The notes under the pieces were generated by a model. It was given only the letters and a program-made list of their open reading frames with translations, did not search any database and was not told the origin of the DNA. From contig CM048845.1 in assembly GCA_026545225.1 (NCBI GenBank), positions 100,374,033 to 100,438,032 on the forward strand: a DNA stretch of 64,000 nucleotides, written 5' to 3'. The position numbers were made by a program, and so were the translations under genes. Numbering within the stretch: the stretch's first letter is position 1; every line of letters starts with the position of its first letter. Origin of the DNA: Cornus controversa (lineage: Eukaryota; Streptophyta; Magnoliopsida; Cornales; Cornaceae). Shown piece by piece: positions 2,823 to 38,330 of the stretch.

Positions 2823-2959
2823 CAAATTTCTTCGGCTAGTTTTTAAGTAGGCTTCTATATTAGTATGCCCACATGACATTAGTACATTACTAGTAGAAAT
2901 GTTCATAATTTTCATTTAGAAAATTGTGCAAGGAAGATATAAGAATAACAAAACAAAAA

Positions 2960-4821: not shown

Positions 4822-4890
4822 GATTTCTGATAACACGTTTACAATCTGCTTGGACATGTATATATTGGTGTTTGTTTGCTTGATGAAGAG

Positions 4891-4900
4891 AAAATATATA
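4891..4900 (-). promoter_or_regulatory. TATA box of UGT copy A
   Basis: The minus strand reads TATATATTTT about 70 nt upstream of the chosen ATG. With a usual TATA-to-start spacing this leaves a leader of about 40 nt, which would exclude the alternative ATG at 4905. The same site is present in copy B. Confidence 0.5.
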
Positions 4901-4905
4901 CGCAA

Positions 4906-5950
4906 CTCAAGTGCATTGAAAGATACTTCAACGAGTCATCACCAATTTAAAAAGGTTTTTTTAGAACTTTTTGTTCATTGGCCTTTTGTTAGATCACTGT
5001 TGCATATTTTGGCTCAATTCAATTTTTTTCCCTTAATGATGAGATTCTACTGTTGATAGATTAACAGATGAATGGACTTACTCAAACTATATGTTTCATA
5101 TAAGACATAAAGAATGAGTAGAAACAAGCTTTTAGTATCAACAAGTTAGTTCAAAAGCTTGCTAATGGTATCTTTCTTCAATAGTACCAAAATATTTTTA
5201 CCTGGATAGGAAAAATGAATAAACAGAGAAAGATATCTTTTTTGGTGTTTAATTATTTGTTCTCTTTCAACCATCAATTCTATTCGTGGCTCTTTTGGGT
5301 GTCTGGTTACATCCATTCCGTTAGTGTTGGTTAAAATTCTTTTGATGATGTGTTTTAGGTGCGTGCGCGGTCATTTGATGAAAAATGCATAAGCCATATT
5401 CTTATGCATAGCATGTGTTGGGATCCTTTGCATTTCCTAGTGAATTTACATCAGAAGAGTAGCAAACTCCTTTTCTTGAGGTTCCATTCAACCATCTATC
5501 CAAGATCAGCTATTCTCAACCTCGACAATATCAAAAGCAACATTAAATTAAACAAAAGATTGCCATATATAACACATATAGAAAGATTAATGCTTCTGAA
5601 ACCTAAACTTGCCTATTCATACAATTCTATGAATTACAACAATACTAAATGATTTGATGCTTGACATGTTCAAATAGTCACTAGTTTCAGCAAGCCTGTA
5701 ACTGTAATGGGCTAACAAATATCAATAAGCAATGCAATAGATATTAATGGTTTGTCACCAATTGATTTTCATTTAATTCAAATACATCAATTGGAAGGTA
5801 ACAGACACCAACTACCTCGGTCGAGTTTGGTACTCCTTCCCACTAAATGTACCAAACTTAGAACATCACAAATCAAAATCAAAATCAAAATGCTTTCAAA
5901 GAAAAGGGGCCAGTTATACTGTCATGTCTTAATTCATAATCTAAGGAATC
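4906..5950. other. Spacer between UGT copy A and the Asterix 3' end
   Basis: About 1 kb of AT-rich sequence forms the UGT 5' flank and the Asterix 3' flank (both genes read leftwards). It is repeated almost unchanged in copy B. I see no separate gene here. Confidence 0.6.
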
Positions 5951-8900
5951 CTAACTTTGTGTTCCAGGTCGAGCAGGCCCCAGGTAGTTCGTAGCCAATC
6001 CCATAACAGCAAACCTGGAGTTAAAATATAGTATCAGAAAGAAAGAAAGAAAAAGATTAATTTACATATTCCACAGGTCGACTTAAAGATAAGAAATATA
6101 ACCATAATATCAAGTGAGACATTGCTAGTCAAGAAAAGATCAACCTCATAAAGCTTGACACTATTATGCAAGGAAATGACATAGTCTATTATCAAAGTCA
6201 AAATTACATCAAGGAATTTAAAGCAGAATTTCCAAAACAGGCCAGATTCCTGTCCAGATTCTCTTATTGATGAAAATCTGTGCCATGTCAAGGCTTTTCA
6301 ATTTAAAAATAACACATATTAAGGATTTCTAAAAGTTGGGAGGGAAATATTTGATTAACAGCCTAAGTTACACAAAATAGAGTTTTGCCTTTTTTTATTA
6401 TAAATAATTTGAAGCAGTGTATCTCCCACTGAATAGAAGAAGGCTTTTGCAGCTCTGCAACCTTGGGAACACAAGGAGGAGCTTTGGCAGCACCCATTTT
6501 CTTAGAACTTGATCATATAAAATTGATTATAGAACACAGCAAACTAATAAATGACAATCTAATAAATAGGCTATTCAATTTGATTAACTTAAAGGAAATC
6601 AGATGTTAATCATGTGGCTTATTTACGCCAACACAATAAGAATTTTATATACAAATATACATTTATGTGTAAAACAATATAGAATATCAATGCATGGTCA
6701 ATCATGTAATAAACATATGGAGAAAAAAAAATTAGGCAAAGGCTGAGCCCATAAAAGTCATAGGTTATGGCCTAAAATACACAGAAAACCCAAATAGGCA
6801 GACCATGCGCAACTGTACTGACCCACTGACTTTGGTACGCTAGAATGACCCTGTGGGAAAATCTAGTTAGATACCTGCAAGATCTAACATCAAGGTAATA
6901 GGGGCTATCTTCAAATAGGGGCTATGAACAGGTCAGTCTGTCAGACCCTAAATCAAGCATTGGAGGATAATAAATTAATCAGCGAGAAAATAACAACTTA
7001 TTAATTAGCCTTGTGATAAAGGTATGTAAAGTTCTCCAATCATTGGTTGAACAGCAAATAAAAGGGCTCTACCAAAAAATTTGATGATGATTTTCCCTAT
7101 AAACAGGTAAGTAAGGTCATCCATCAATGAAGAGAAGACTTCTGCTCCTTAAGAAATAAACTGCATACAACTAAAATATATACAACTCTTTAGGAATTTA
7201 GCCACATGAGCCCCAATCCACGTTTCCTTTGAGTTTTTTAGTGATGCAGCCAGCCAGTCACAAGGTGAGAGAGCCTTTAAATTCATAATGCAACTGCCTG
7301 TAACAATTTTGCTTGAACCGAAATCAAAATAAACTTACTCAGTGTGTCAATTTCATTGTATATTGTTTTTCTATTTCATCTATTTAATTTTTTTTCTATT
7401 AATTCAAATACATCGTAATTTTGCAATATAATTGACATTACTTCAAAAATTAATTGGGAAATGTGTTAACTATGAACCTATGAATAATAGAACTCATTAA
7501 TTCCATGAGAGAAATTTGCAGTACAATTATCATAATCGCCTAGTGATAAGAACATGAATTTATGTCACCAAATTTCGTGCACGCCCACAAAATCAATAAT
7601 AAATAAGCCAAATGTAGGAATCAAGCTTTTTAGCATTTTTCAAAGCCCTTTCTAAATATGCAATGGATGCAGATCTTTGTTCCTTTATAGCCATATAGAT
7701 TCTAGTTATCAACTTGAGTTGGATGGAGGCGGTAAGCCCTTGCAGAAATCCAATGTGGTGAAGATTCAAATTTTACCTCAATTCACCTCTTACCGTCCAA
7801 GATTTCGAGTGTATCCGATAAAAGCTCAATTTAGTCATTGGTAGCTTTCTGGGTTCGCCCAAGTTCTAAAGCTGAGGGCTCAAGGCAATTGCATTTCTAG
7901 ATTGAAAAATGAAGTGTGCAGAGGAAGCATGTTTCATCCTCAACACTTCTTTAAAAATGTTTGTACTCAATTTAATGAATCCATTAAGATTATTACACCT
8001 AACAACAAACATGATTACAATTCTATTCTAGAGTCATAATTAACCATGCATTAGAAAAGGCACCAGAAAAGGCACCAGAACACCAATACAGGCTCACTGA
8101 ATGCACATGGCATGTGGTTTGATGTATGCATCTATAGGCATCAATCTCGATTGGGAATGCGTTAGAATACCTCCCATTCTTCACCACCACACCCCACCCT
8201 CCCCCCCCCCCCCCCAAAAGAGAAAGGCATGGAAAGGAGTAATATACGGATTAAGTGGCTCAAACTGGTATCTGCAATAGTCATGCCCTGTAGATATTTA
8301 GGTTAGCAGTTGTTTACTTTTTTAGTAGGATGCCACTACTTATTTAACAAATCAACACACATTTAGAGTGATTTGCCCTCACTATTCATTTTTCTCCATA
8401 CCCCCAATCTTGTGTAGAACATTTAAACAAAAAGGAAAAAAAAAGGTACTAACCTTCCTTAAATGCACTTTTGTGGGTGCCTCCATCATAAAATATTGTC
8501 ATCAAGTATTATGATCCTTTACCTCGAATAGAATTCATCTCTACATGATGTATGTTTTGTTGGGATTATATGCCCTAAAAGCCAATTATTTGTATATATG
8601 ACATTGGGGAAAGCTAACCTCCCTGCTTTCATGGGGAGGTTAAGCTTTGTCCCATATTTTTTAGACAATAAAAGCCCTTCACTTTTATTGTTTAGCATTT
8701 TAAGTGAAGGCTACTTCTGTCATTTTATATTTTTTTTGCATCTCCACTTCAACGTTCACTTTTCCTTGAACATCTACGTCAAAAATACCACTCACCAACA
8801 ACCATGGATTCCACCAACAAGATGAATGTTTTAATGTATTCTGGTCGGAATCCATGATCGACGACCACGAAATCCATGGATTCCGTCCGAACTGCATCCT

Positions 8901-11900
8901 GCATCCATGGATTCCGACAGGCATAGTAAAATTGACAACCATGGATTTTGGCAGGAGTGCAGGACTACATCCTGCTTCCATGGATTTCGATTCACCGAAG
9001 ATCTCGTGCACAACGGCTAGGAGAGGTTGGACCCGACATGGCGGCAGAGAGATTCAGGATTAGTGCACGGAGTGCCGGTGGCTGTGACGACAAGTTCACG
9101 GCAATGGCAAGGTCGTGACAATGGCATTGAGAGAGAAGGTGGTAGAGGTGGCGACAATGGCACTAAGTGTGAGAGAGAGAGAGGCTATGAGAAGGAGAGA
9201 GAGAACAGGTGGGTTAGGGTTTTTTTGGTTTTGAAATTACATTAATGTCCATCATTTTTGTGAGGGGGCAGAGTCTAATAGGGTTATATTTGACTAAAAA
9301 TATGTGGACAAAGCTTAACCTCCTCATGAAAGTGGGGAGGTTAGCTTTCCCATTTGACATTTTATTAATAAATGTGATTTTTTATTAATTAAATATTCAC
9401 GCCTTGGGCTTTTCATATGTTCGCATGAGATGCATTGGGGGTGACTAAGTGTGAGAATGAGATTTACACAGGAGATTTGCGTTCACCTGCTTCTTGCATC
9501 TTGGCATTGTTCGCAGTCGTTAATAAAGCTAGACGCTTTATTCTGTAAGACCATAACACACTTGACCTCTATGAGATAGGATGGTTTGTCTTGATCATTA
9601 GAGTAGTTAACTCTAAGTCACCATGTCAGTGTGCTAGGAGCACACTGAATTGGATCACCATAAGATCACATCACACAAATTACTGCCATTATTTTGGTGT
9701 GATTCTCATCTACTGAATGCATTAGGCTCTAAATCCTGAAAGGTTTAGTGGACTCAAGTTTCAGTGTTGGTCATTTTGATTTACTAATGTGTGAGATCTT
9801 TTAAGATTAATACCACAGTATCTTGGGTGGCCATTGTTGGAGCTGTGGGAATGCAAACACTCAATGTAAAATATCACCTTGATGCAATTTAAAAAGTTTG
9901 ATCACTAGAACTTGGCCAGGGCATTTTAGTAAAAAATGTCAAATGTTTACTAGATTTTGATAAACCATTCAAGGTAAAAACGGATGCCTCCGGTCAGAAT
10001 ATTAGGGGTGTGTTAGTGCAAGAAGATCGTCCGGTGGCCTTCGAAAGGAGTCTTCCAAACTGTTTGGAGAAATTATGATATTCAATCCATGCTTCTCTAT
10101 TTTTCTATTATTCATGCCTGAAAAACATTTATTTTGAAAATTCTTCTATCAAAGAATTTAATCCAGTGATCATAAAGTTTTAAATTGGCTACTCAAGAAA
10201 TATAAGATATAAGTAAGCCTTAAGTGGGGACAGTATTTAATTTTCTTGGGGCTACTTGTGGATATTCAATAGTGGAGGGGCTTAAATGCAATAATTTAGT
10301 AGGACATGGCCTTGTTGTAATTTCCAAATCCTATAGTGCAATTACAATAAAATAGTGGTAATTATTGTAATTAATTGGATAGAAATAAAATTATGAGATA
10401 ACTCAATCACTATCCAATTGGAGCTAGGATAAGGAAGCCCTTTGGATCCTCATCTCTAACCCCATTTATTATAAAAGGATATTATCTCTCAGGTTATTAT
10501 TCTGTAATTGTATATACATAAAATACAGAATACAGAATAACAATAATAAGAGATAGAGGTTTCCAAAAACCTACATTCTAGGGTCACAGAGGTGAAGCTT
10601 CAGTGGTGTTCAAGAGAAAGAGTGTTCTTGTATCGACGATCAATCAATCGTCCAAAGGTATTAATTCAATCTTAACGGTTTCGATTTCATTAAAAATCAC
10701 GTGATAAAGATCCTATATTTTTTTTAAAATTGCTTTCGTTTTTCTTCAGATTTTAACAAATCCATAACATATCAAATTACTTCACCTTCCATGTAATAAA
10801 AATTGGATTGAGTCTCTCTTCTCTCCTTTCCTTTCACTTTATTAGTATCTATGTCTCTCTTTCACCTTATTGCAGGTGAAACTCGAACGAGTTAGGCAGG
10901 TTAAAGAGACAACCCACGCTCAACCCAACCCAACCCAACCTTCAACTCAAGTTCCCCAACACTTGTTCAAATTTTTGAACTCGGGTTGAGCTTGGGTTAA
11001 ATAGCAATCAAACTGAGAATTGGGTTGATCTCCATTAGCCTCATGTTGGTTTACACCTACGCATTAAGATTCTAAAAAATGAATGTTAATATATACAAAC
11101 TTTTCCTTACCCGCCATAAAGTCAATTAGAGGCATTACTAATCTGGATTTTTTTGTACTCCTACATCATAATTGGACCCTAAACATATGAAACTGATCAC
11201 ACACAATTTTGTGCCATATACAACAATTCATCTTTTGATTTGAAGCAAAATTTTATGGCTTCTTCATTTATAAGACTTCTACGCATTCCTACAAGGGCAT
11301 TAGGATATACGAGCATAAAGAAACACACGATTTTAAGTTCTTGGAAAAGTTTCACATTTCAAAAACAGTTTGAATGAGTTGAAAGAATGCTCTCCAAAAG
11401 CTTGGTTTAAAATATTTAGTGATTGATAAAATAAAATAAAAAGGAATCATCCAAAAGTGAAGGAACACGGCATATTCGTGAAGCACTTAGGCAAAAGAAA
11501 AGGAATCCCAAACAAGTAACAACTAAATAACATTGGGGTGGGGAGTAAAAAGAAACACTTCATATCCTTTATCTTGATCCTAAAGTGTGTTGTGCAATAT
11601 CACAAAAGGTACTTAAAAAAAAGGTTTGAGATTGAATCTTAAACATATAAAAACAAAATTGTTACGAACATGGTGCAACAAGCATAATGAACCATGTATT
11701 TATTCATATTTAAGAAGACCATCCTATTTAAGAAGTCTCCAACTTTTTCATACACAACAAAATAGAAGCAATTTTTGGCGTCTAAAAAATTTCCTTCTAG
11801 ATTTTCATTCTGTTTCCATCTTTTGTGATTAAATGATTTAAAAAAGGGGAAAAAATTATAACTTGACATGTCATGAGAAACAGAACATTATCAACAATTT

Positions 11901-13988: not shown

Positions 13989-14677
13989 TTCTCTATTTTT
14001 CTATTATTCATGCCTGAAAAACATTTATTTTGAAAATTCTTCTATCAAAGAATTTAATCCAATGATCATAAAGTTTTAAATTGGCTACTCAAGAAATATA
14101 AGATATAAGTAAGCCTTAAGTGGGGACAGTATTTAATTTTCTTGGGCTACTTGTGGATATTCAATAGTGGAGGGGCTTAAATGCAATAATTTAGTAGGAC
14201 ATGGCCTTGTTGTAATTTCCAAATCCTATAGTGCAATTACAATAAAATAGTGGTAATTATTGTAATTAATTGGATAGAAATAAAATTATGAGATAACTCA
14301 ATCACTATCCAATTGGAGCTAGGATAAGGAAGCCCTTTGGATCCTCATCTCTAACCCCATTTATTATAAAAGGATATTATCTCTCAGGTTATTATTCTGT
14401 AATTGTATATACATAAAATACAGAATACAGAATAACAATAATAAGAGATAGAGGTTCCAAAAACCTGCATTCTAGGGTCACAGAGGTGAAGCTTCAGTGG
14501 TGTTCAAGAGAAAGAGTGAGTGTTCTTGTATTAACGATCAATCAATCATCCAAAGGTATTAATTCAATCTTAACGGTTTTGATTTGATTAAAAATCACGT
14601 GATAAAGATCCTGTATTTTTTTAAAAATTGCTTTCGTTTTTCTTCAGATTTTAACAAATCCATAACATATCAAATTA
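13989..14677. repeat. 0.69-kb direct repeat, copy 2 (gypsy 3' end/LTR-derived)
   Basis: Second copy of the 10093-10779 sequence, same orientation, about 3.9 kb away, with abrupt unrelated flanks on both sides. Unlike copy 1 it is not preceded by the RNase H relic. It is a broken LTR-retrotransposon fossil. Confidence 0.75.
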
Positions 14678-16555: not shown

Positions 16556-16693
16556 CCAAATTTCTTCTGCTAGTTTTTAAGTAGGCTTTTATATTAGTAT
16601 GCCCACATGACATTAGTACATTACTAGTAGAAATGTTCATAATTTTCATTTAGAAAATTGTGCAAGGAAGATATAAGAATAACAAAACAAAAA

Positions 16694-18547
16694 TCATCCC
16701 TTAATTTGTTCGATGAAGTTATTGAAATTCTTGAATGATGATCCACCTTCGGTGATACTCTGTCTACCCAATTCCTTCATCTTCACTGCATTCGCTCTTA
16801 TACTGCCATCAGACAGCAACATTTCCATCTGTCTCTTTATCTCATGCTTTGAGATGATCCCATTTCCCTCTGGTTTCAATCCTAAACCCACCTTCCAAAC
16901 ATCACAAATGTAGCTCCTATTGAGAAACTGATCTGTAAAGTAAGGCCAACACAGAAAGGGCACACTCATGCTTAGACCCTCTATGGTTGAGTTCCAACCA
17001 CAATGGGTCAGAAAGCAAGCAATAGAAGGGTGAGCCAATACTTTCTCCTGAGGTGCCCATTTGACTATCTTTACATGATCAGCAACTCTCTCCAAGAACC
17101 CATCAGGGTATCTATAAATAAGCGCATCAGTGAGGTTTGATCTCACAACCCACAAGATTGGTTGTGCTAGCAATTCAAGTCCTAGTGCTAGTTCTTCAAA
17201 TTGTTGAGCACTGAAGATTGTTGTGCTGCCAAACGCGACATATATGACTGATTTGGCAGGCTGTGCATCGAGCCAGGTTAAACAAGTTGAGTCCTCAGGC
17301 CAAAAGTTTCCTGTGCATTGCCCAAAATCATCACTTGACAGTAATGGACCGATAGATAGGAGGTTTGGGATCAATTTGCAAGCCAAAGACTCAAGCTCAT
17401 TGAATGAGTTGCAAAGAAGCCAATTTGAAGTTTTGGCAGCTTCAATGGCGGACAACGTTAATGCAAATGCCACCTTTTGTGCGGTTGGGTCGTCCGGCCA
17501 GTTCCATGGAAAATCAGCAGTATTCATGGCAGGCAAGTCCGGTGACAGACAGATCATCTCATTTTTCAAGGCAGTTCCTATGAAAAAAAAATCAAATAAG
17601 TACATAAATTGAAGCAAGAATAAATTCTACTTTTGTTAAATTAATTTTGTGGATTGTTGGCTTTTGTACAAGTATGTTTTAGCTTCTGATTGGTTCTTGA
17701 CAACTATGAGGGAAAGGAACAAAAATGCATCTATTTGCATACATGATTGTTTTCCTTTCCTTTTCCCTGATAATCAAAAGATCCTTAAAACATTCAAAGA
17801 ACTTGAACCAATTGAATATCAAACAACTTGAAACTCAAAACAGTGATATGTCCAGCTTTAGGCCTTTTACATGGGATCACTTGCTGTTGCTGTCAAATCT
17901 TAGGGAAAATCTTTGCTCTCTCTCTCTCTCACACACACACACAGTCACATCTTGCAGTATTTTGTTCTGTAAGAAGAAAAATCGGATGGTCTAACCACAA
18001 GATTACATTAAGACTAAACTATTTGTCCTGTTAAAGAAGAGTAAGAATAGAATATACCATCATTATCAATTACTGCAGCCTCAATCAGCTTTGGAATGTG
18101 GAGACCACAGGCAAAGGCTGTCACTGATGAAGGCCAAAACATGGCATGCTTGATTCCCATCTTTTGAGCAATTCCTAGAGCCCATGAGACTGCTACATCA
18201 GCAATGACACAAGTGATGTGTTCATCATCATCACTTGATGAATTGATCTTGTTAATCAGGTCCTCCAAATGACCAGGCATGACTTTCAGAATAGTTTCAT
18301 TCAGCTTTGTCACATTTTTTCGATCATCCCCTGGTTCAAGTCCATCAGGGATCGATACCATCTCAATCCGGTTTTGCTCTTCACCCTTCTCCCGCGATGC
18401 TGCCAAGATTAAATCATGTATGAACTCTGTGTTCACAAATGTAACCTTGACACCGCCATCAGCAATCCGTTGTGACAGCTTCATGAGGGGCCGTACATGG
18501 CCTTGTGCAGGGTATGATACAGCTAGCACATGCGCTCGCTTGCCCAT
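16694..18547 (-). CDS. UDP-glycosyltransferase, UGT83A1-like (copy B)
   Basis: Two exons, 18547-18058 and 17577-16694, with the same phase-1 intron as copy A, again encode 457 aa. His17, the PSPG box at 337-380 and its final Gln are unchanged. Compared with copy A there are six amino acid differences: V43I, D78N, L115I, E117D, V144A and E413Q (copy A first). At residue 117 this copy has the canonical Asp of the plant UGT His-Asp catalytic dyad (motif IADVAVSW). No frameshift or stop is present and the splice sites are intact, so it looks functional. The role should be glucosylation of a small cytosolic acceptor; the acceptor is not predictable from sequence. The start was chosen as in copy A. 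Confidence 0.9.
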
Positions 18548-18616
18548 GATTTCTGATAACACGTTTACAATCTGCTTGGACATGTATATATTGGTGTTTG
18601 TTTGCTTGATGAAGAG

Positions 18617-18626
18617 AAAATATATA
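18617..18626 (-). promoter_or_regulatory. TATA box of UGT copy B
   Basis: Minus-strand TATATATTTT, 70 nt upstream of the chosen ATG, identical to the copy A site. The flanking 200 bp differ from copy A at only a few positions. Confidence 0.5.
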
Positions 18627-19677
18627 CGCAACTCAAGTGCATTGAAAGATACTTCAATGAGTCATCACCAATTTAAAAAGTTTTTTTTTGAACTTTTTGT
18701 TCATTGGCCTTTTGTTAGATCACTGTTGCATATTTTGGCTCAATTCATTTTTTTTCCCTTAATGATGAGATTCTACTGTTGATAGATTAACAGATGAATG
18801 GACTTACTCAAACTATATGTTTCATATAAGACATAAAGAATGAGTAGAAACAAGCTTTTAGTATCAACAAGTTAGTTCAAAAGCTTGCTAATGGTATCTT
18901 TCTTCAATAGTACCAAAATATTTTTACCTGGATAGGAAAAATGAATAAACAGAGAAAGATATCTTTTTTGGTGTTTAATTATTTGTTCTCTTTCAACCAT
19001 CAGTTCTATTCGCGGCTCTTTCTGGTGTCTGGTTACATCCATTCCGTTAGTGTTGGTGAAAATTCTTTTGATGATGTGTTTTAGGTGCGTGGGTGGTCAT
19101 TTGATGAAAAATGCATAAGCCATATTCTTATGCATAGCATGTGTTGGGATCCTTTGCATTTCCTAGTGAATTTACATCAGAAGAGTAGCAAACTCCTTTT
19201 CTTGAGGTTCCATTCAACCATCTATTCAATATCAGCTATTCTCAACCTCGACAATATCAAAAGCAACATTAAATTAAACAAAAGATTGCCATATATAACA
19301 CATATAGAAAGATTAATGCTTCTGAAACTTAAACTTGCCTATTCATACAATTCTATGAATTACAACAATACTTAATGATTTGATGCTTGACATGTTCATA
19401 TAGTCACTAGTTTCAGCAAGCACTGTAACTGTAATGGGCTAACAAATATCAATAAGCAATGCAATAGATATTAATGGTTTGTCACCAATTGATTTTCATT
19501 TAATTCAAATACATCAATTGGAAGGTAACAGACACCAACTACCTCGGTCGAGTTTGGTACTCCTTCCCACTAAATGTACCAAACATAGAACATCACAAAT
19601 CAAAATCAAAATCAAAATGCTTTCAAAGAAAAGGGGCCAGTTATACTGTCATGTCTTAATTCATAATCTAAGGAATC

Positions 19678-19741
19678 CTAACTTTGTGTTCCAGGTCGAG
19701 CAGGCCCCAGGTAGTTCGTAGCCAATCCCATAACAGCAAAC
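19678..19741 (-). pseudogene. Orphan duplicate of the Asterix last exon
   Basis: A 64-nt exon identical to Asterix exon 3 (5951-6014), with its splice acceptor (CCAG before GTTTGC on the minus strand) and stop codon preserved. It lies upstream of Asterix exons 1 and 2 on that strand, so the gene in this window cannot splice to it. No other Asterix exons are seen to its right within the window. It was carried along with the UGT duplication. Confidence 0.85.
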
Positions 19742-20185
19742 CTGGTGTTAAAATATAGTATCAGAAAGAAAGAAAGAAAGAAAAAGATTAATTTACATAT
19801 TCCCAAGGTCGACTTAAAGATAAGAAATATAACCATAATATCAAGTGAGACATTGCTAGTCAAGAAAAGATCAACCTTGACACTATTATGCAAGGAAATG
19901 ACATAGTCTATTATCAAAGTCAAAATTACATCAAGGAATTTAAAGCAGAATTTCCAAAACAGGCCAGATTCCTGTCCAGATTCTCTTATTGATGAAAATC
20001 TGTGCCATGTCAAGGCTTTTCAATTTAAAAATAACACATATTAAGGATTTCTAAAAGTTGGGAGGGAAATATTTGATTAACAGCCTAAGTTACACAAAAT
20101 AGAGTTTTGCCTTTTTTTATTATAAATAATTTGAAGCAGTGTATCTCCCACTGAATAGAAGAAGGCTTTTGCTGCTCTGCAACCT

Positions 20186-20413
20186 TATATACGCAACTCA
20201 AGTGCATTGAAAGATACTTCAATGAGTCATCACCAATTTAAAAAGTTTTTTTTAGAACTTTTTGTTCATTGGCCTTTTGTTAGATCACTGTTGCATATTT
20301 TGTCTCCATTCATTTTTTTTCCCTTAATGATGAGATTCTACTGTTGATAGATTAACAGATGAATGGACTTGCTCAAACTATAAGTTTCATATAAGACAAA
20401 AAGAAAGAGTAGA
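20186..20413 (-). repeat. Third partial copy of the UGT 5' flank
   Basis: About 228 bp matching the region just upstream of the UGT genes (copy A about 4896-5125, copy B about 18622-18851), starting at the TATA box and ending at GAGTAGA. It is fused to the end of copy B with no UGT coding sequence attached. It shares the CTTCAATGAG variant with copy B rather than copy A. Confidence 0.85.
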
Positions 20414-22818: not shown

Positions 22819-25061
22819 TTATACAAGTTGTTTTGAATCAGCTGATTTCTTCCCCTCCATTGTTGGCTTATAAATATTTGAGGTGCTAATTGTTGGAAAA
22901 TCTGTTGATGCTTCAAGTTTCTGCAAAAAAACAAACACAAGTTCTCTCTCAATAGAACCACATAACTTGTGGATATGGAAAAGCAAAAATATAACATAAT
23001 CCAAATGGGTTAGGATAAGAGGTGTTTACAATGAGAACCTAAGACAAAAATTCATAATCCAAATTTTCAATTTCTAATTGATCCTTGGTTGGATAATTGG
23101 ACCGTGCAAAGGAAAACAGATCATGTTCAGAATGATTACATTTCTTCAATGTCTTATAACATGTTCATTGTTTAATTGGCTTGAAGATGCCATCATATAT
23201 TGTTAGTACTACACTACAATTCAGCAAAGAATTCAGCCAACCACATCCAAAATAATTACGGAAAACAAACATTATAATTTCATTCAAAGTGAAGTATCCA
23301 ACATGTTTGACATTACTTCATCAAACAAAATAGATCCAATTAATTTCCCACACCATTGTTCAATAGAAGCATCTATATATTTCACCAGAGAGAGTCATAC
23401 CTTGTCTCTGAATGATTTTATGACAGCAGTCAACAACTTGTCTCCTGCTAACTGTCTCATTCGCTGTATCAATTCATGCCGTGAGATCTTCTTTTCCTGG
23501 ATGACAAAATTGATCGAGATAGGGATATTAATTAGTAGAATAAAAGATACCATAGATATTCTAGAATCATGCCACAAATGCGAGTCATATATAGATACTT
23601 ACTCGATGATAACTGTGATATTTGGACATCAAACTGATGGTATGAGGAGGTAAGAACTTCGAAAGGACATATATTAGAGTAGAAAATGGCATCCAAGGTG
23701 AATTTGGCCTTATCAATGGATTTTGAATCCTTTGCAAACCTAATCAATTCAAAACACAGAAGAAAATAAATGAATGCTACATCTTGAACTATTCCGAAAT
23801 TCTAGAATACCATTAAAACAATTAAACTCAGAAAAGTACGTCAAATTAATCTCTCACCTTTTAAGCAAGGAGGAGCTCTGAAACTTATGACATACTCTGG
23901 CAAAATATGAGTATTCATGTGGGTACTCCACACAATGTACTTTTTAGGAGCTGAGAGATTGTCAACGCCAGAATCAAACTCTTCAGAACTCGGATGACAC
24001 TGTTCAGACCCGGGATGGACAAGCTCCATCTTCCCCAAGATAACGCGACAAAGCAGTAGATGCCTCAAACCATCCTCATCAATGATGGAAGATTTAACAC
24101 TGTAAAACCAAAAACCCCAAGATCAAAAATCTTACAAAATTTGACCTATACTTGAAGAAATTACACACAATCAACAATACTCGTACTTTAATCAACCAGT
24201 GTATTACCCAGTGTTTGTCCTGCATATGACTTCAATCAACTGATCAGGAAAAATAATTTAAGAAAATTGTGCTGAAAATAATGGAAGATTTAACACTGTA
24301 AAACAAACCCATTCACAAAAATCATACAAAATTTGACCTATACTAAAGAAATTACACACAATCAACACTACTAGGATGTTAATCAACCATTGCATTACCC
24401 AGTGTATGCCCTGCATATGACTTTAATCAACTGATAATGCAAAATAATTTAAGAAAATTAGAAAAACGTACGTGCTGAATGTATACTTTGCTTACCTTTC
24501 AATGGAAGAATCCTCGGGATAGAGATAGATGCCACAGCCATACGATCCATTGCTCTCAGTTTTCCCACAATGACCAAAACCATGAGAAATTATCTTCCCA
24601 ATCTCATTCTTGGAAGCACCATACCAAACAAACTTCAAATTCGAATTACCACACTTGTTTTCCATAGCTTGGTTGAAAATTTGAAACGAACGAAGCCGGG
24701 CTTGTCTTGTAAAGCCAGAACAAGGATATCCATGTATGGCCACCACTCTGCTCTGAGCTCCAATAGAACCCAAACCCCAAAAAAATCTGCTTTCGATCAT
24801 TTTGAACAGTCTGTGCCCTTCATCTATTTTGATCAACACATGACTAAAATCTTGAGATTGGACAGAGTGTGGGCCGGAAATCCTACTTTCGCAATCAGAA
24901 ATTGATGGGTTTTCTTGATCAAGAACAGTCCTTGAGACCGAATCTCCGGAATCCGAATGCTTGTTTGGATCATCTAAAGTATGTATTCGATTTCTGGTAG
25001 CGTCAGAAAGTAAACCCTTGAAGGGCCTAAACCCATTTACATTCCCATCATTGCTTCCCAT
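22819..25061 (-). CDS. SRO protein (SIMILAR TO RCD ONE), inactive PARP plus RST domain
   Basis: Five exons, 25061-24496, 24099-23858, 23739-23603, 23496-23401 and 22920-22819, keep phase throughout and encode 380 aa. Residues about 70-265 form a PARP-like domain and about 275-347 an RST domain ([19 protein letters not shown] then [19 protein letters not shown]). There is no WWE domain, so this is the short SRO2/SRO3/SRO5-type class. The PARP triad is degenerate: the first His is Tyr147 (WYG), Tyr179 remains (GIYL), and the final Glu region reads [12 protein letters not shown]-ribosyl transfer is therefore unlikely. SROs act in the nucleus in stress and hormone responses by binding transcription factors through RST; that role is inferred from the family. 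Intron 1 contains a tandem duplication of the exon 2 acceptor region, and fragments of exon 1 recur in the array upstream. Confidence 0.9.
24084..24460. repeat. Tandem duplication in SRO intron 1 including the exon 2 acceptor
   Basis: Two direct copies of about 180 bp with a spacing of about 195 bp (24084-24270 and 24281-24460). Each contains GGAAGATTTAACACTGTAAAAC, the first bases of exon 2 with its 3' splice site, plus adjoining intron. The true exon 2 continues only in the left copy. The right copy carries a decoy acceptor with an intact AG. Confidence 0.8.
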
Positions 25062-25189: not shown

Positions 25190-25400
25190 GTGTGAGGCAG
25201 CGTTTAGGAATGTTACTTGGGGAGGAGGGAAGAGTAACAGCGGTAGCGTTTTAGCAATATTGTTACTTTGGGAGGAGGTACAACTAATATAAAACTAACG
25301 GAACCGCCGCAGGGTTTGGAATTGGTGGTTGTTTTTGTTTCCTCTTTCGGCCGGTATTGGCGGTGTGGTGTGGGCGTGTAATTTTTTGGACCAATAGCAC
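25190..25400 (-). promoter_or_regulatory. SRO 5' flank with tandem promoter motif
   Basis: Upstream of the SRO start the plus strand has two tandem copies of a motif of about 45 bp (GTAGCGTTTAGGAATGTTAC then TTGGGGAGGA), followed by CTAACGGAACCGCCGC. A GT-repeat lies at about 25165-25195. The same motif block recurs next to each SRO fragment in the array: three copies in units 1 and 2, two in unit 3. A regulatory role is an inference from position alone. Confidence 0.5.
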
Positions 25401-25536
25401 CTTGTATAAGTTGTTGAACCTACAATAGAAAAAGTTAAGAGATTAATCTCATCATATATATAAAGCAACAAAAAAATGTAAAAGTAGACAACTGTTAAGC
25501 ATCATATCCAATCTTCCAACCAAATAAAATTCAAAA

Positions 25537-25876
25537 GATTTAACACCGTAAAACAAACCCATTCACAAAAATCAATGGAAGAATTCTCAGGATAGAGATA
25601 CAGATACAGATAGAGATAAGAGATATAAATTACAATATTTTGCTTGCTTGAAAATCGAAACGAGCTTGTCTTGTACAGCCAGAACAACCATATCTATCTG
25701 TGTATGGCCACTACTCTGCTATAGTGCTATGAGCTCCAATAGAACCCAAACCCCAAAAAATTCTGCTTTCGATAATTCCGAACAGCCTATCCTCTTCCTT
25801 ATTTTATTGATGGGTTGATCAAAATAGACGAAGGGGATATATAGACTGTTCAAAATGATCGAAAGCATAATTTTTT
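25537..25876 (-). pseudogene. SRO exon 1 fragment with inverted repeat (unit 1)
   Basis: The sequence matches SRO intron 1 (right tandem copy), then jumps to the 3' end of exon 1 (CAATGGAAGAATTC) and continues through degenerate exon 1 text with deletions. Bases 25755-25790 and 25841-25876 are inverted copies of one exon 1 segment (31 of 36 positions pair), separated by 50 bp. The right arm keeps the closer match to the functional gene. No reading frame survives. Confidence 0.8.
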
Positions 25877-26159
25877 CGGAAATCCCACTCACAGTTCAAT
25901 GAAACTAGCTTTAAACTCTGATGATCAGCTTATTGATTCTCTGCATCTTAAGTCTACAATAACTAAACTAACCCACAAAAATGCTTTCTCACAGTACAAG
26001 AACCCATACTTCAAATAAACCAATCTAAAAAAAATCAATTAAATGTTCACAAGAGAACGAAGTAAAAGCAAATTTGAATAAATTGAAAGAGTTTTGGTGG
26101 TTGATAAAGTTGCAGAGGTAGACTAATGATTGAATGTGTGTGTATATATATATATATAT

Positions 26160-26400
26160 ATTTGTGTGTGGCGGTGGTGGGGGTAGCGTTTAGGAAAGTT
26201 ACTTGCGGAGGACGGAGAAGTAACAGGGGGTAGCGTTTAGGAATGTTACGTGGGGAGGACGGAGAACAGGGGGTAGCGTTTAGGAATGTTACGTGGGGAG
26301 GACGGAGAAGTAATATAAAACTAACGCAACCGCCACACGTTTTGGAATTGGTGGTTATTTTTGTTTCCTCTTTCCTTGCATCCGCGGTGTGATTGTGGGT
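26160..26400. repeat. SRO promoter-like tandem motif block (unit 1)
   Basis: Three tandem copies, about 47-bp period, of the GTAGCGTTTAGGAATGTTAC motif with GGAGGACGGAGAA, then CTAACGCAACCGCCAC as in the SRO 5' flank. It is preceded by GT and AT dinucleotide runs. Confidence 0.75.
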
Positions 26401-27093
26401 ACCGCTGCAGTTTGGGCGGGTTAGAGATACAATCCGATTCACTTTACGTATGAAATGTTCAATCTTAATTTAAACCTAACCCTACTCTAACCCTAACTAT
26501 TCAACCCTAATCCAATCCATCTTTAAATTTTTAAATTCAGGTTTGCAACTAGAGTTGAAATTTTGGGTTTGAAAGTCGGGTTAATTTGGATTATCTATAT
26601 TATCAATCTCTATGTTAAAATTTTAAAGTGATCTGTAATAAGTTTCATATTAGATTACTCCTAAACACCCAAAAAATTAAGAACTGAATCCAAATTTCTA
26701 AAAAATTACAAACAAACTTTTATAAAATTAATTATCCAAAGTATTAACATACAATAAATTAAGATTTAAATAGAGGAAGTTGAAAAGAAAAATGTTATTA
26801 TAATTTGAATATTATATATAATATATTTAAAATAAAAAATATGTATAAAAATAATATTACAATTCGGGTTCGAGTTGAGCTCAGGTTGTTGGTACCTCAA
26901 CCCAAGTCCAACACTAATTAAGTTCTGGTTGAGATTTTTTAACCCAAGCACAACCTTACTTATAAAAATAGTTGCTCAAATTCGTAAAAAATCGGACTGA
27001 GCTCGAGTTGGGTTCGGATTACCCAACCTAAGTTGCACCCTAGGTGTGGGTCCGAATGTCGTTCTCTCTCTTTCTCTCTCTCTCTATATATAT

Positions 27094-27287
27094 GAGCAAT
27101 GCTATACGTCATGAAATTATTTTATGAATTTGTATCATGAATGATGTGGCAGGTAACGTGGAGAGTTAGTATTGGTAGAATTCCCCCCATACACAGAGTT
27201 CCATGATATTATCACTGAATTCCACCAATACTAACTCTTCACGTTACCTGCCACATCATTCATGAAATAATTTCATGACGTTTAGCA

Positions 27288-27293
<6 letters not shown>
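27094..27293. mobile_element. Mutator-type MITE (unit 1 only)
   Basis: A 200-bp palindromic element with ends GAGCAATGCTATACGTCATG and its near complement, inserted in a CT/AT microsatellite. Unit 2 has an uninterrupted microsatellite at the equivalent place. A relative lies at 32433-32644. Confidence 0.7.
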
Positions 27294-27318
<25 letters not shown>

Positions 27319-29510: not shown

Positions 29511-31504
29511 CTATTTTTTGAAACAAGTCAATCCGTCATCTTATAAAAGTTAACAACTTGACCCCCTCATAGAAATATAATGATATATATACCCTTTATT
29601 ATGTCCATTATGCCCTTTTCTTTATAAATAATTTAAAAATATAAAAAAGTAAAAGGCCAATAGAATTTTATTCTAACTATTTTTTTATTTTTTAAAATTT
29701 TTCTTTAGAAAATACTATACTTATAGTGTAAAGAGCATATATGTTATTATAGTTGATTAAATTTTTTTGTTTTTAAAAAATCTTAAATAAATTTCTATTA
29801 ACCTTTTATTTTTTAATGCTTCTAAACGTATTATTTAGGAAAATAGTATATATGTCATTATAGTTCTGTCACATGTCAACTTTTGTAAGATGATAGACTA
29901 AGTTGCTTCAAAAATAGTTCAGGGTGAATTTGTACATTTGAAAAAGTTAATGGAGATTTCTGCACTTTTGCATTTTTCATATTGCTTTATTATACTAATA
30001 CAATGTCATTTTAGTCTTTTGGAAGGCATAGGTCCTTATTTGCACAGTTTTATATCTTTGAAGGGTGATTTTTAATACACATGGACATATGCATCATAGG
30101 AAATTTTTCTCACTTTACACAAACACACACACACACATATATAATGGGACGGGGTTGCCACCCCTTTTCCCGCAGTATATATTCTGTAAATTTAAGTGGA
30201 GAAACAAAATGGTGTAAAGAAAATAGTGACGTATCTAAATATTCTTTGACGAGCACAAGAAAAAAATATAAATACTCTTTGCTTGGATTAATTGTATTTC
30301 TGGTAAACAATGAATAATCTTGTCTCAACTAATAAGATTGCTATACATTGAAAATGTTTGGCTTGTATTACCTTTCAAAAAAAAAGTGTGGATTTACTGG
30401 GTTATCATTTCTAATTTAAGCCAATAATTTTTAGAATAATATTTGTCTACTCATAAGTGAATAAGAACGTACCCTTTATTATGGATGTGACATAACGAAT
30501 GACACGTGTCAATTTTTTCAAACATAAACATGATTTTAGTTATTAATTCATGTACTACTTAAATGACATGATTTATTTGGTTCCAATAAAATTAAAACAA
30601 GAAAAAAATCAGATTGCGAATTAATCTCAATAAAATGCCATGGTTAAATTTGCATGCCTCTCAATTTTTCTTGGTTCTCAAGCTAGCCAAAAAAAGTTAT
30701 TATTTAGAAATTGTAGATTTACCCTGTCACAGATATGAAAAAACGATTTTATGAGTATAGTACACAAGCTTCCCCTCCGCTAAATGTTGACTAATGGTCA
30801 ACGATGGAGTCAGCAAGTAAAATTTCAAATATTTTTATTTTTCCCTTTGCATCAATGTAAAGACAATGTTACCACCATTTTTGGAAGAAAAAAAAATCGA
30901 CTTTGGTGCCCTTATATAACATTTTTGACAAGACAAATCATTAAATACATATATTATGAGATTGCATACATTTTTTTATGTTTATTAAATATAAAATATT
31001 GTATTTTGAAATAACAAATTATACACATATATTATCAGATTTCAGTACATATATTTCTAAAAATTTACATTGTTTCATTTTTTTTTAAAAATGCATTTAA
31101 TTTGTGCTTTATATTTTCCAAGCCTCTCTCACTATTTATTTTGCACAGCTCTTACTTTTTCTTTTCAATTTTTTTCTTTTTGCTGCACGACATAGAAGAA
31201 GTTGTAAATTTGGAAATTAATTACCTATAGTGCATAATATAAATTTTATTAAATATATATTAGTTGAAATGCAATTTCAAATATTACAAAATTTTAAGAA
31301 TTATATATATATAGCAAATATATAGCATTAAAACAAAATAAAATATATAATACATTCTACAAGTGTTTGAATTAGCATCTTGAATAAGTTGTTGAACCTA
31401 CAATAGAAAAAGTAGAGATTAATCTCATCATATAAAGGAATAAAAAGAGTCAAAATAGACAAGTGTTAAGCGTATCCAATCTTCCAACCAAATAAACTTC
31501 AAAA

Positions 31505-31848
31505 GATTTAACACCGTAAAACAAAACCATTCACAAAAATCAATGGAAGAATTTCAGGATAGAGATGCAGATAGAGATAGAGATAAAGATAGAGATATAA
31601 ATTACAATCCATTGCTTGCTTGATAATTGAAACGAGCTTGTCTTGTACAGCCAGAACAACCATATCTATCTGTGTATGGCCACTACTCTGCTATAGTGCT
31701 ATGAGCTCCAATAGAACCCAAACCCCAAAAAATTCTGCTTTCGATAATTCTGAACAGCCTATCCTCTTCCTTATTTTATTGATGGGTTGATCAAAATAGA
31801 TGAAGGGGATATATAGGCTATTCAAAATTATCGAAAGCATAATTTTTT
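31505..31848 (-). pseudogene. SRO exon 1 fragment with inverted repeat (unit 2)
   Basis: Same structure as the unit 1 fragment. The inverted arms are 31727-31762 and 31813-31848 (33 of 36 positions pair), with a 50-bp spacer. The arms derive from the exon 1 segment around 24776-24811. No reading frame survives. Confidence 0.8.
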
Positions 31849-32112
31849 CAGAAATCCCACTCACAGTTCAATGAAACTAGCTTTAAACTCTGATGATCAG
31901 CTTATTGATTCTCTGCATCTTAATTCTACAATAACTAAACTAACCCACAAAAATGCTTTCTCACAGTACAAGAACCCATACTTTGAATAAACCAATCTAA
32001 AGAAAATCAATTAAATGTTCACCAGAGAACGAAGTAAAAGCAAATTTGAATAAATTGAAAGAGTTTTGGTGGTTGATAAAGTTGCAGAGGTAGACTAATG
32101 ATTGAATGTGTG

Positions 32113-32179
<67 letters not shown>

Positions 32180-32181
<2 letters not shown>

Positions 32182-32400
32182 GTGTGGCGGTGGTGGGGGT
32201 AGCGTTTAGGAATGTTACTTGCGGAGGACGGAGAAGTAACAGGGGGTAGCGTTTAGGAATGTTACTTGCGGAGGACGGAGAAGTAACAGGGGGTAGCGTT
32301 TAGGAATGTTACGTGGGGAGGACGGAGAAGTAATATAAAACTAACGCAACCGCCACACGTTTTGGAATTGGTGGTTATTTTTGTTTCCTCTTTCCTCGGC
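32180..32400. repeat. SRO promoter-like tandem motif block (unit 2)
   Basis: Three copies of the GTAGCGTTTAGGAATGTTAC motif with GGAGGACGGAGAAG, followed by CTAACGCAACCGCCAC. It is preceded by a GT run and an AT run of more than 50 bp. Confidence 0.75.
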
Positions 32401-32432
32401 GAGTTGAACGGGTTAGAGGGGCAATTTGAGTT

Positions 32433-32644
32433 GAGAAATGCTAAACGTCACAATTTTATTTCACGAATTTTAACTCGAATCTATGTGGTAGGTGATAATA
32501 CCATAGGGACTCCGTGTATGGGGTGAATTCCACCAATAATAACTTACCATTTAATTTTATCTCCTAAAATAATGGACTATACCACCTGCCACATAGATTC
32601 GAGTTAAAATTCGTGATATTTATTCGAGACGTGTAGCATTGCTC
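32433..32644. mobile_element. Mutator-type MITE (unit 2 only)
   Basis: A 212-bp palindromic element with ends GAGAAATGCTAAACGTC and GACGTGTAGCATTGCTC. Flanking 9-bp direct repeats ATTTGAGTT (32424-32432) and ATTTGGGTT (32645-32653) differ at one base. Same family as 27094-27293 but at a different site in the unit. Confidence 0.8.
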
Positions 32645-33273
32645 ATTTGGGTTCACCTTACATATAAATATTTAACTCTAATTTAACACTAACCCTACTT
32701 TCAACCCTAACTACTCAACTCTACCCCAATTCATCTTTAAATTTTTAAACTCAGATTTGCAACTCGGGTTGAGATTTTGAATTAGAAAGTCGGGTTAATT
32801 CGGATTATCTATATCACCAATCTTCATGTTAAAAATTTAAAGTGATCTGTAATAAGTTTCATATTAGATTACTCCTAAACACCCAAAAGATTAAGAACTG
32901 AATCCAAATTTCTAAAAAATTACAAACAAATTTTTAGAAAAGTAATTATCCAAAGTATTAACATACAATAAATTAAGATTTAAATAAAAGAAGTTGAAAA
33001 GAAAAAACTTATCATAATTTGAATATTATATATAATATATTTAAAATAAAAAATACGTATAAAAATAATATTATAATTCAGGTTCGGGTTGAGCTCAGGT
33101 TGTTGGCATCTCAATCCAAATCCAACTCTAATTAAGTTCGGATTGAGGTTTTTCAATCCAAGCACAACCCTAATTATAAAAATAGTTGCCCAAACCCATA
33201 AAAAATCGGGCTGGGCTCGGATTGGGTTCAGATTGTCCAACCTAAGTTGCACCCCTAAGTGTGGGTCCGAATG

Positions 33274-35614: not shown

Positions 35615-37588
35615 GACATATGCACTATATGTAAATCATATCAAACTTTTCTCACTTTACACACACATATATATATATATAATGGGACGGGGTTGCCACC
35701 CCTTTGCCCGGAGTATATATTCTGTAAATTTAAGTGGAGAAACAAAATGGTGCAAAGAAAATAGTGACGTATCAAAATATTCTTTGATGAGCACAGGAAA
35801 AAAATATAAATACTCTTTGCTTGGATTAATTGTATTTTCTGGTAAACAATGAATAATCTTGTCTCAACTAATAAGATTGCTATACATTGAAAATGTTTGG
35901 CTTGTATTACCTTTCAAAAAAAAAAAATGTTCCGACTGTGCGACTCAATTTTTCTTTAAACAATCATCTTGAAGGATTAGGAAAACTCTTTTAGAACTTG
36001 GAAGGCTTCAAATCTCAACATCCAACATGTCATGAGATGTGTCATGCCACATGCTCTCTCTTTCCATCCATCCATTAATATTCTAGATTTTCTGTAAAGC
36101 AAATTTGGAACATTAACCTTTATGAATAAAGAATACTATATGTTTTGGTTGAGGTGATATTCGCACTCGAATTAATTTTTTTTTTTGTCAAAATTATATT
36201 TTAATAGAAAAAAAATTCAAAATAACTAGATGCATGTCATGGTTGATTTTGTCCTTGAAAGTAGCAACACTCATTTTAATAACATGAACTAGAGAATGGA
36301 GTTTTCAAAAAAAATTTGGAAGTGCAAATATGATTTTCTTGTATGCCAATATGCTTGAAAAATTATTCCATAATTCAAATTTAAGATTTAGAGGTTTCCA
36401 TTCTTATTTGTTTTTGTGTTACTGCTTCATTCAATGTAATTTCATTGTATTTTTTCACAAAAGAAGCAAAGCAGAGCGGGACAAAAGTTGGGTGAAAGAA
36501 TTTAAAGAGCCGATGACACTATCTACTAAATAGTTTTAAATAGAGATGAAAATTTGCTCCGATAAATAAAGACGGAAATGAGAAATGGCCTCCAACCCTA
36601 AATTTGCTGGGTCATCATTTCCAATTCATGCCAATAACTTTTAGAATAATATTTGTCTACTCAGAGGTGAATAAGAATCTCCTCTTTAATATGAATGTCA
36701 CATAACGAAAGACACGTGTCAATTTTTTCAGACATAAACATGATTTTAGTTATTAATTCATGTCTACTTAAATGACATGGTTTATTTGGTTCCAATAAAA
36801 TTAAAACAAGAAAAAAATCAGATTGCGAATTAATCTCAATAAAATGCCATGGTTAAATTTACATGCCTCTCAATTTTTCTTGGTTCTCAAGCTAGCCAAA
36901 AAAGTTATTATTTAGAAATTGTGGATTTACCCTGTCACAAATATGAAAAAACGATTTTATGAGTATGGTACACAAGCTTCCCCTCCGCTAAATGTTGACT
37001 AACGGTCAACGATGGAGTCAGCAAGTAAAATTTCAAATATTTTTATTTTTCCCTTTGTGTCAATGTAAAGACAATGTTACCACCATTTTTGGAAGAAAAA
37101 AAAAATGACTTTGGTGCCCTGAGACAAATCATTAAATACATATATTATGAGATTGCATACATTTTTTTATGTTTATTAAATATAAAATATTTTATTTTGA
37201 AATAACAAATTATATACATATATTATCAGATTTCAGTACACATATTTCTAAAAATTTACATTATTTCATTTTTTTTTTAAAAATATGCATTTAATTTGTG
37301 CTTTATATTTTCCAAGCCTCTCTCACTATTTATTTTGCACAGCTCTTACTTTTTCTTTTCAATTTTTTTCTTTTTGCTGCACGACATAGAAGAAGTTGTA
37401 AATTTGGAAATTAATTACCTATAGTGCATAATATAAATTTTATTAAATATATATTAGTTGAAATGCAATTTCAAATATTACAAAATTTTAAGAATTTTAT
37501 ATATATATATATATATAACAAATATATAGCATTAAAACAAAATAAAATATATAATACATTCTACAAGTGTTTGAATTAGCATCTTGAA

Positions 37589-38330
37589 TAAGTTGTTGAA
37601 CCTACAATAGAAAAAGTAGAGATTAATCTCATCATATAAAGGAATAAAGAAAGTCAAAATAGACCAGTGTTAAGCATATTCAATCTTTGGACCAAATAAC
37701 CTTCAAAAGATTTTACACCGTAAAATAATCCCATTCACAAAAATCAATGGAAGAATCCTCAGGATAGAGATAGAGATAGAGATAGATGGCACAGCCATAC
37801 AAATTACAATCCATTGCTCTTACTTTTCCCACAATGACCAAAACCATGAGAAATAAATAATTATCTTTCTAATCTCATTCTTGGAAGCACCATTATGGTG
37901 CTTCCAAGAATGAGATTAGGAAGATAATTATTTAGTGATGTTTTGAACAAAATAGATGAAGGAGAAGGGCCTAAACCCATTTACATGCCCATCATTCCTT
38001 CCCATTGGAATGCAAAGTAACCTAGAAATCCATGAGAGAACGAAGTAAAAGCAAATTTTAATAAATTGAAAGAGTTTTGATGGTTGATAAAGTTGCAGAG
38101 TCTACAATATATATATATATGTGTGTGTGTGAGGGTAGCGTTTGGGAATGTTACTTGGGGAGGACGGAAAAGTAACAGAGCGTAGCGTTTGGGAATGTTA
38201 CTTGGGGAGGAGGGATAAAATTAATAGAAAACTAACGCAACCGCCACACGTTTTGGAAGTGGTGGTTGTTTTTGCTTCCTCTTTCCTCGTATTGGCTATG
38301 TGGTGTGGTGTGGGTCCTAATAGCTAAATA
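37589..38330. repeat. SRO-derived tandem array, unit 3 (truncated)
   Basis: Starts with the same GTTGTTGAACCTACAATAG boundary and contains an SRO fragment and a promoter-like block (38135-38300, two motif copies), then diverges at about 38330. Its GTGGTGTGGTGTGGG end resembles the flank of the functional SRO gene more than units 1 and 2 do. Confidence 0.8.
37709..38028 (-). pseudogene. SRO exon 1 fragment containing an 81-bp palindrome (unit 3)
   Basis: It joins intron 1-like text, the 3' end of exon 1, the GASKNEIG segment, an inverted copy of that segment, and finally the 5' end of exon 1 (region encoding VNGFRPF and the initiator ATG). The arms 37854-37893 and 37895-37934 are 40 bp each with one mismatch (a G:U pair in one transcript orientation). 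The fragment is not translatable as an SRO protein. Confidence 0.85.

Follow-up and report, generated by a model that had tools for sequence, protein, structure and literature searches.

A near-perfect palindrome in a degenerate SRO exon-1 copy of Cornus controversa, a probable scar of DNA copying or repair

A palindrome at 37854-37934 of a 64,000-nucleotide stretch of Cornus controversa DNA (assembly GCA_026545225.1, contig CM048845.1, positions 100,374,033 to 100,438,032 of the forward strand; the window) raises the question of whether a fragment of a protein-coding gene facing its own inverted copy is a gene in the making or the trace of an accident. The original prediction considered it a candidate young hairpin-RNA (proto-miRNA) locus directed against the neighboring SRO gene and named a rearrangement scar as the main alternative. 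It is this alternative that is favored by the junctions, the sister copies and the paralogs described below. It is very likely that a single event of DNA copying or repair, in a non-functional SRO exon-1 copy, left the palindrome as its scar, and that the hairpin is a by-product with no demonstrated function.

The palindrome and its rarity

When the two arms were paired directly, the predicted anatomy was confirmed: each arm is 40 nt long, 39 of the 40 positions are paired and 1 nt lies between them. The palindrome consists of three features (exon-1 positions refer to the intact SRO gene in the same window, and relic C is the degenerate SRO copy in which the palindrome lies).

37854..37893, minus strand: left arm, relic C exon-1 sequence in its original place and orientation, with SRO sense on the minus strand
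37894, no strand: axis base T, the complement of the next exon-1 base (A, 24623)
37895..37934, plus strand: right arm, most likely the left arm copied inverted (39/40 paired)

In a scan of the whole window for palindromes with short spacers, 37854-37934 scored 36. The six others scoring at least 14 were five AT runs (maximum 27) and one 14-bp pair, and no score above 13 was reached in 20 first-order Markov sequences, each of 64 kb. The palindrome is far beyond chance. A search of the assembly (771.7 Mb in 61 contigs) that tolerated 3 mismatches placed its 29-base core at one site, and the backwards-sequence control gave 0 matches. A MITE was rejected as the source of the palindrome, since all 12 matches of the genome search were at SRO loci and the core was found at one place.

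The same scan (score of at least 18) was applied to a background sample of 200 kb, consisting of twenty 10-kb stretches taken in 6-Mb steps along contig C1 of the same chromosome. Ten palindromes were observed, seven of which are AT/TA runs or nearly so (dinucleotide share of 0.84 or more), and those labeled L023 and L028 are built of a repeated ATCGAT-like motif. Palindrome L036 (2609-2682), about 590 kb from 37854-37934, has perfect 37-bp arms around an AT-run centre, 29 bp of them outside the centre. It occurs as a whole at one genome site, and parts of it are 79-87 % alike at four other sites. The sample suggests that palindromes like the one at 37854-37934 are not exceptional here, one comparable case in 200 kb being a thin base.

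Both arms come from SRO exon 1, as had been proposed from the sequence. The longest exact match is 23 nt for the left arm, the length originally given, and 24 nt for the right arm including the axis base. The right arm with the axis base is identical to exon 1 at 35 of 36 positions, which agrees with the earlier estimate of about one difference over 33.

SRO copies around the palindrome

The intact SRO gene (A1) was placed about 13 kb from the palindrome in the original prediction; the distance is about 13.3 kb, and the gene reads through as 348 aa with RST and PARP domains. The setting of the palindrome had been overlooked. It lies in a degenerate exon-1 copy (37577-38308) which has two sister copies, and the three broken copies of upstream region and exon 1 beside A1 (A2, B and C) head successive units of a tandem array of about 6 kb.

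23395..25061, minus strand: intact SRO gene A1, four coding exons, 348 aa; exon 1 at 24496-25061
25395..26399, minus strand: sister relic A2, with A1 24667-24830 direct and 24776-24850 inverted; older inverted duplication at about 25751-25879
31373..32398, minus strand: sister relic B, with the same older inverted duplication as A2, at about 31724-31848
37577..38308, minus strand: relic C as a whole, with an intron 1 / exon-2-acceptor fragment, exon-1 remnants and upstream region
37744..37893, minus strand: relic C exon-1 remnant, collinear with A1 exon 1 24499-24622
37931..37962, plus strand: beginning of the older flipped segment, which corresponds to exon 1 24848 to 24817 in sense orientation; 29/32 to the A1 minus strand
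37928..38005, minus strand: relic C start codon and 25-codon leftover frame, MGRNDGHVNGFRPFSFIYFVQNITK then stop
38035..38308, minus strand: relic C remnant of the SRO upstream region, with a putative promoter role

The coding exons of A1 are 25061-24496, 24099-23858, 23739-23603 and 23496 onward. Its product contains an RST domain (E-value 1.5e-24) and part of a PARP fold (E-value 6.3e-07), and the exon-1 product matches the solved SRO1 (E-value 0.00076) and RCD1 (E-value 0.0063). The start of exon 2 and its acceptor are tandemly duplicated into intron 1 (24081-24268 and 24277-24459, 86 % identical). Two more SRO loci were found in the same genome, D (C1:84,684,533 onward) and E (C2:70,260,070 onward); paralog D has one TAA within the stretch matching residues 1-191.

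Compared with A1, relic C is direct as far as 24622. Two inverted pieces follow, one running from 24623 to about 24588 and the other from 24848 to 24817, after which direct sequence resumes at 25020 and takes in the start codon. Approximately 207 bp of exon 1 are missing and the right arm stands in their stead. The direct remnant (37744-37893) has substitutions at 7 of the 124 columns compared with 24499-24622, plus 3 insertions. The right arm and the older flipped segment overlap by TTTA, and the stop codon of the 25-aa frame falls in the right arm. A single simple inversion was ruled out, as the order of the inverted pieces (24623-24588, then 24848-24817) is unlike that of one inverted segment.

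Relics A2 and B run direct from about 24667 as far as 24830; this part is followed by 24850 to 24776 in inverted orientation and then by direct upstream sequence. Both keep 24667-24830, which lies within the segment missing from C; both lack the start codon, which C has, and the portion of exon 1 that reaches to about 24660. Their inverted pieces are oriented like the one of C that begins at 24848, and the ends almost coincide. On this ground the simplest reading is that A2, B and C would descend from a common ancestor copy already carrying the older inverted duplication; the event in C would then have removed 24624-24830 (207 bp). The presence in A2 and B of this earlier event, an inverted exon-1 duplication with a deletion, means on the sequence that events of this kind occurred at least twice in this copy family.

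The older duplication gives A2 and B an imperfect hairpin from SRO exon 1, self-complementary at 96/133 and 96/127 aligned positions, with predicted folding energies of -52.5 kcal/mol (A2) and -53.3 kcal/mol (B). Should any locus here yield small RNAs, these predicted stems look more miRNA-like than the palindrome. The upstream blocks of A2 and B (26045-26399 and 32017-32398) differ at 5/334 sites and other blocks at 19/239, 70/655 and 42/659, a similarity that would reflect local gene conversion or unequal exchange.

Elsewhere in the window, long direct repeats were observed at 2823-6464 / 16557-20186 (98.2 % over 3.6 kb) and 10093-10779 / 13989-14677 (97.8 % over 0.69 kb), nested like the terminal repeats of inserted elements; no TG..CA ends were found at their BLAST limits, which are approximate. 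Elements that resemble MITEs and have inverted ends lie at 27091-27294 and 32432-32645, and a relative of the first is found upstream of paralog D (L009 457-671, with matches in both orientations).

Origin of the right arm and the proposed event

The derived state of the palindrome in relic C is polarized by the three relatives that are free of the event. In A1, D and E the sequence across the axis is CACCATACC and runs straight through, and the axis T of C is therefore the complement of 24623. As judged from these alignments, the inverted copy starts one base past the end of the direct copy, and A1, D and E fix the switch point.

The source of the right arm was examined by comparing fits. Against C's own inverted flank, the right arm and axis base together scored 37.5; the fit to inverted A1 exon 1 was poorer (33.5), and the three direct sources tried gave 7.0, 7.9 and 7.7. 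In a control with 3000 random places in the window, each compared with its own inverted left flank, the highest value was 36.0, against 37.5 for the right arm; such a place may be an AT run or the palindrome itself. In addition, a 7-nt insertion is missing from A1, D and E, and five of its bases are present in both arms. Since the right arm is closer to C's left flank and the insertion bases are shared, one arm was most likely copied from the other, and the same two observations rule out an independent origin of both arms from the SRO gene.

Two details fit less simply. The right flank in the form found in B also contains a match to the insertion of the left arm. This insertion may predate the event and have supplied the microhomology, or it may have been added later, when the left arm was extended on the hairpin as template. 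At the sole mismatch between the arms, the left arm and D have AGAAAG, the right arm AGGAAG and A1 GGGAAG; the right arm shares its base with A1 and the left arm with D, a pattern not expected from one simple event.

We propose that synthesis proceeded to the base corresponding to exon 1 24622, moved to the other strand at the base next to it, and then ran backwards for about 41 nt. The copied strand would have rejoined further along at a short match, TTTA or possibly TTATTTA. The outcome would be the loss of about 207 bp of exon 1 and a relic with a near-perfect hairpin sequence. Such a process would fall into the class of template-switch mutation or of fold-back, microhomology-mediated break repair. 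The copy structure, the polarity, the junctions and the shared older event are observed directly; the enzyme, the setting (replication or break repair), the order of the steps and the lack of function are what we infer.

The match at the rejoining point is TTTA, or TTATTTA (7 nt) if one T of a run in B slips. A microhomology of at least 4 nt has a chance of 0.022 at window composition, a value that is higher in AT-rich DNA. The shortness of this match stands against the scar reading, as does the 1-nt spacer, which is unlike the loop left by a simple intramolecular fold-back, and the left-arm insertion matching the right flank of B may need a second correction step beyond the simplest model. 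A fold-back within the molecule at TTGG/CCAA of A1 was itself rejected, because it would leave a 10-nt loop that is absent from C.

Both classes of process have been described. Template switching makes hairpins in one event (PMC8794818), and fold-back inverted insertions occur at double-strand breaks (PMC11724301). As in the hairpins of PMC8794818, the reverse complement of the adjacent segment would here have been copied in one event to give a near-perfect stem, but the present case has a deletion of about 207 bp and lies in a plant pseudogene copy, whereas the cases from that work considered here concern RNA genes, mainly rRNA. The insertions described in PMC11724301 are likewise short, inverted and templated, with the other end joined by 0-5 bp of microhomology (median 2); the yeast fold-back there has an imperfect 10-bp inverted match and a 41-nt loop, in contrast to the 1-nt spacer found here. 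Template-switch models (PMC8794818) and fold-back repair of breaks (PMC11724301) both yield a strand switch between neighboring bases, a templated insert in inverted orientation, lost sequence and a short match where the copy rejoins. The locus has the apparent anatomy of such an event.

With regard to age, the arms differ at 1/40 sites, B and C at 58/1203 sites in the adjoining repeat and 24/241 in the left block, and C and A1 at 7/124 in the exon. The palindrome event is probably younger than copy C, the single arm difference being a poor basis for dating. These difference counts gave no sign of special conservation of the palindrome.

Alternative explanations and meaning of the palindrome

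A variant of the scar reading, compatible with it, is a hairpin-capped end: the DNA end at the axis would have been sealed as a hairpin and opened by a nick some 40 nt from it, and its joining to the older flipped segment would have given a palindrome almost free of spacer. We regard this route as rather unlikely. The 1-nt spacer would favor an inter-strand switch or a hairpin-capped end over a simple fold-back with a loop, and would suit the opening of a hairpin end better than a looped fold-back, but a strand switch accounts equally well for the axis base. A palindromic overhang of 40 nt is also long for the hairpin-opening route.

The proto-miRNA reading supposes that relic C is transcribed from the co-duplicated SRO promoter, that the hairpin is diced and that the small RNAs silence SRO. 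Its premise is sound, in that inverted duplication of a target gene, invoked in the original prediction, is a published route to MIRNA genes (PMC1790633, PMC3237417, PMC13128112): 16 young Arabidopsis MIRNA loci arose from inverted duplication of protein-coding genes, and MIR163 took the promoter of its gene of origin too, by computational evidence (PMC1790633). At this locus, the exon-1 origin, the near-perfect inverted duplication, the folding and seven exact 21-mers hold, but no sign of a hairpin-RNA gene accompanies them in the sequence. The minus strand is predicted to fold at -55.1 kcal/mol (z -15.3; 38 pairs) and the plus strand at -59.1 kcal/mol (z -16.6; 39 pairs), each with a 3-nt loop, and the minus-strand stem also forms in a 321-nt context (z -8.2). 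Seven 21-mers of the region are identical to SRO exon 1, and the SRO upstream region is partly retained in C.

Against these points, a 14-base upstream element, TAATATAAAACTAA, which is a putative promoter element, is identical in A1, A2, B and D and is changed to TAATAGAAAACTAA in C at 38222. The near-perfect stem with its 3-nt predicted loop is also unfavorable, as DCL1 has limited activity on perfectly paired dsRNA (PMC1790633). Measured against A1, the arms carry 1 and 2 differences over about 36 sites, which is no closer a match than that of the entire remnant (7/124), and the sister relics show that inverted duplications are recurrent in this copy family. The 64-kb window contained no Rfam families at gathering scores, which a new locus need not match. 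The arms of the young MIRNA loci MIR161 and MIR163 likewise originate in a protein-coding gene, some of whose upstream sequence is included (PMC1790633, PMC3237417), but the palindrome, known here from its sequence, has a short, near-perfect stem with almost no loop. Even for loci formed in this way, drift and death is perhaps the commonest fate (PMC1790633).

We therefore consider the proto-miRNA reading improbable, and a small chance is left that the palindrome is a nascent hairpin-RNA locus. In its boldest form, a single template switch in a promoter-bearing relic would just have made a hairpin RNA gene against the neighboring SRO stress gene, the older and more diverged A2 and B hairpins being earlier births; this is very improbable. 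If true, it would be a plant locus where repeated template switching keeps yielding candidate hairpins against its own parent gene.

An assembly or sequencing artefact is the least credible explanation: fold-back chimeras are known in long-read libraries and the palindrome is seen in one assembly, but it is short, has non-palindromic sequence at both ends and one arm mismatch, and lies at a junction with a 207-bp loss, joined to a flipped segment that is found in two sister copies.

Read as a scar, the palindrome would be a well-polarized case in which one copying error turned part of a gene into a near-perfect hairpin, and the parent gene, the sister copies and an older event of like kind can be seen beside it. 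It also indicates that derivation of a palindrome from a neighboring gene gives, on its own, little reason to assume a small-RNA gene.
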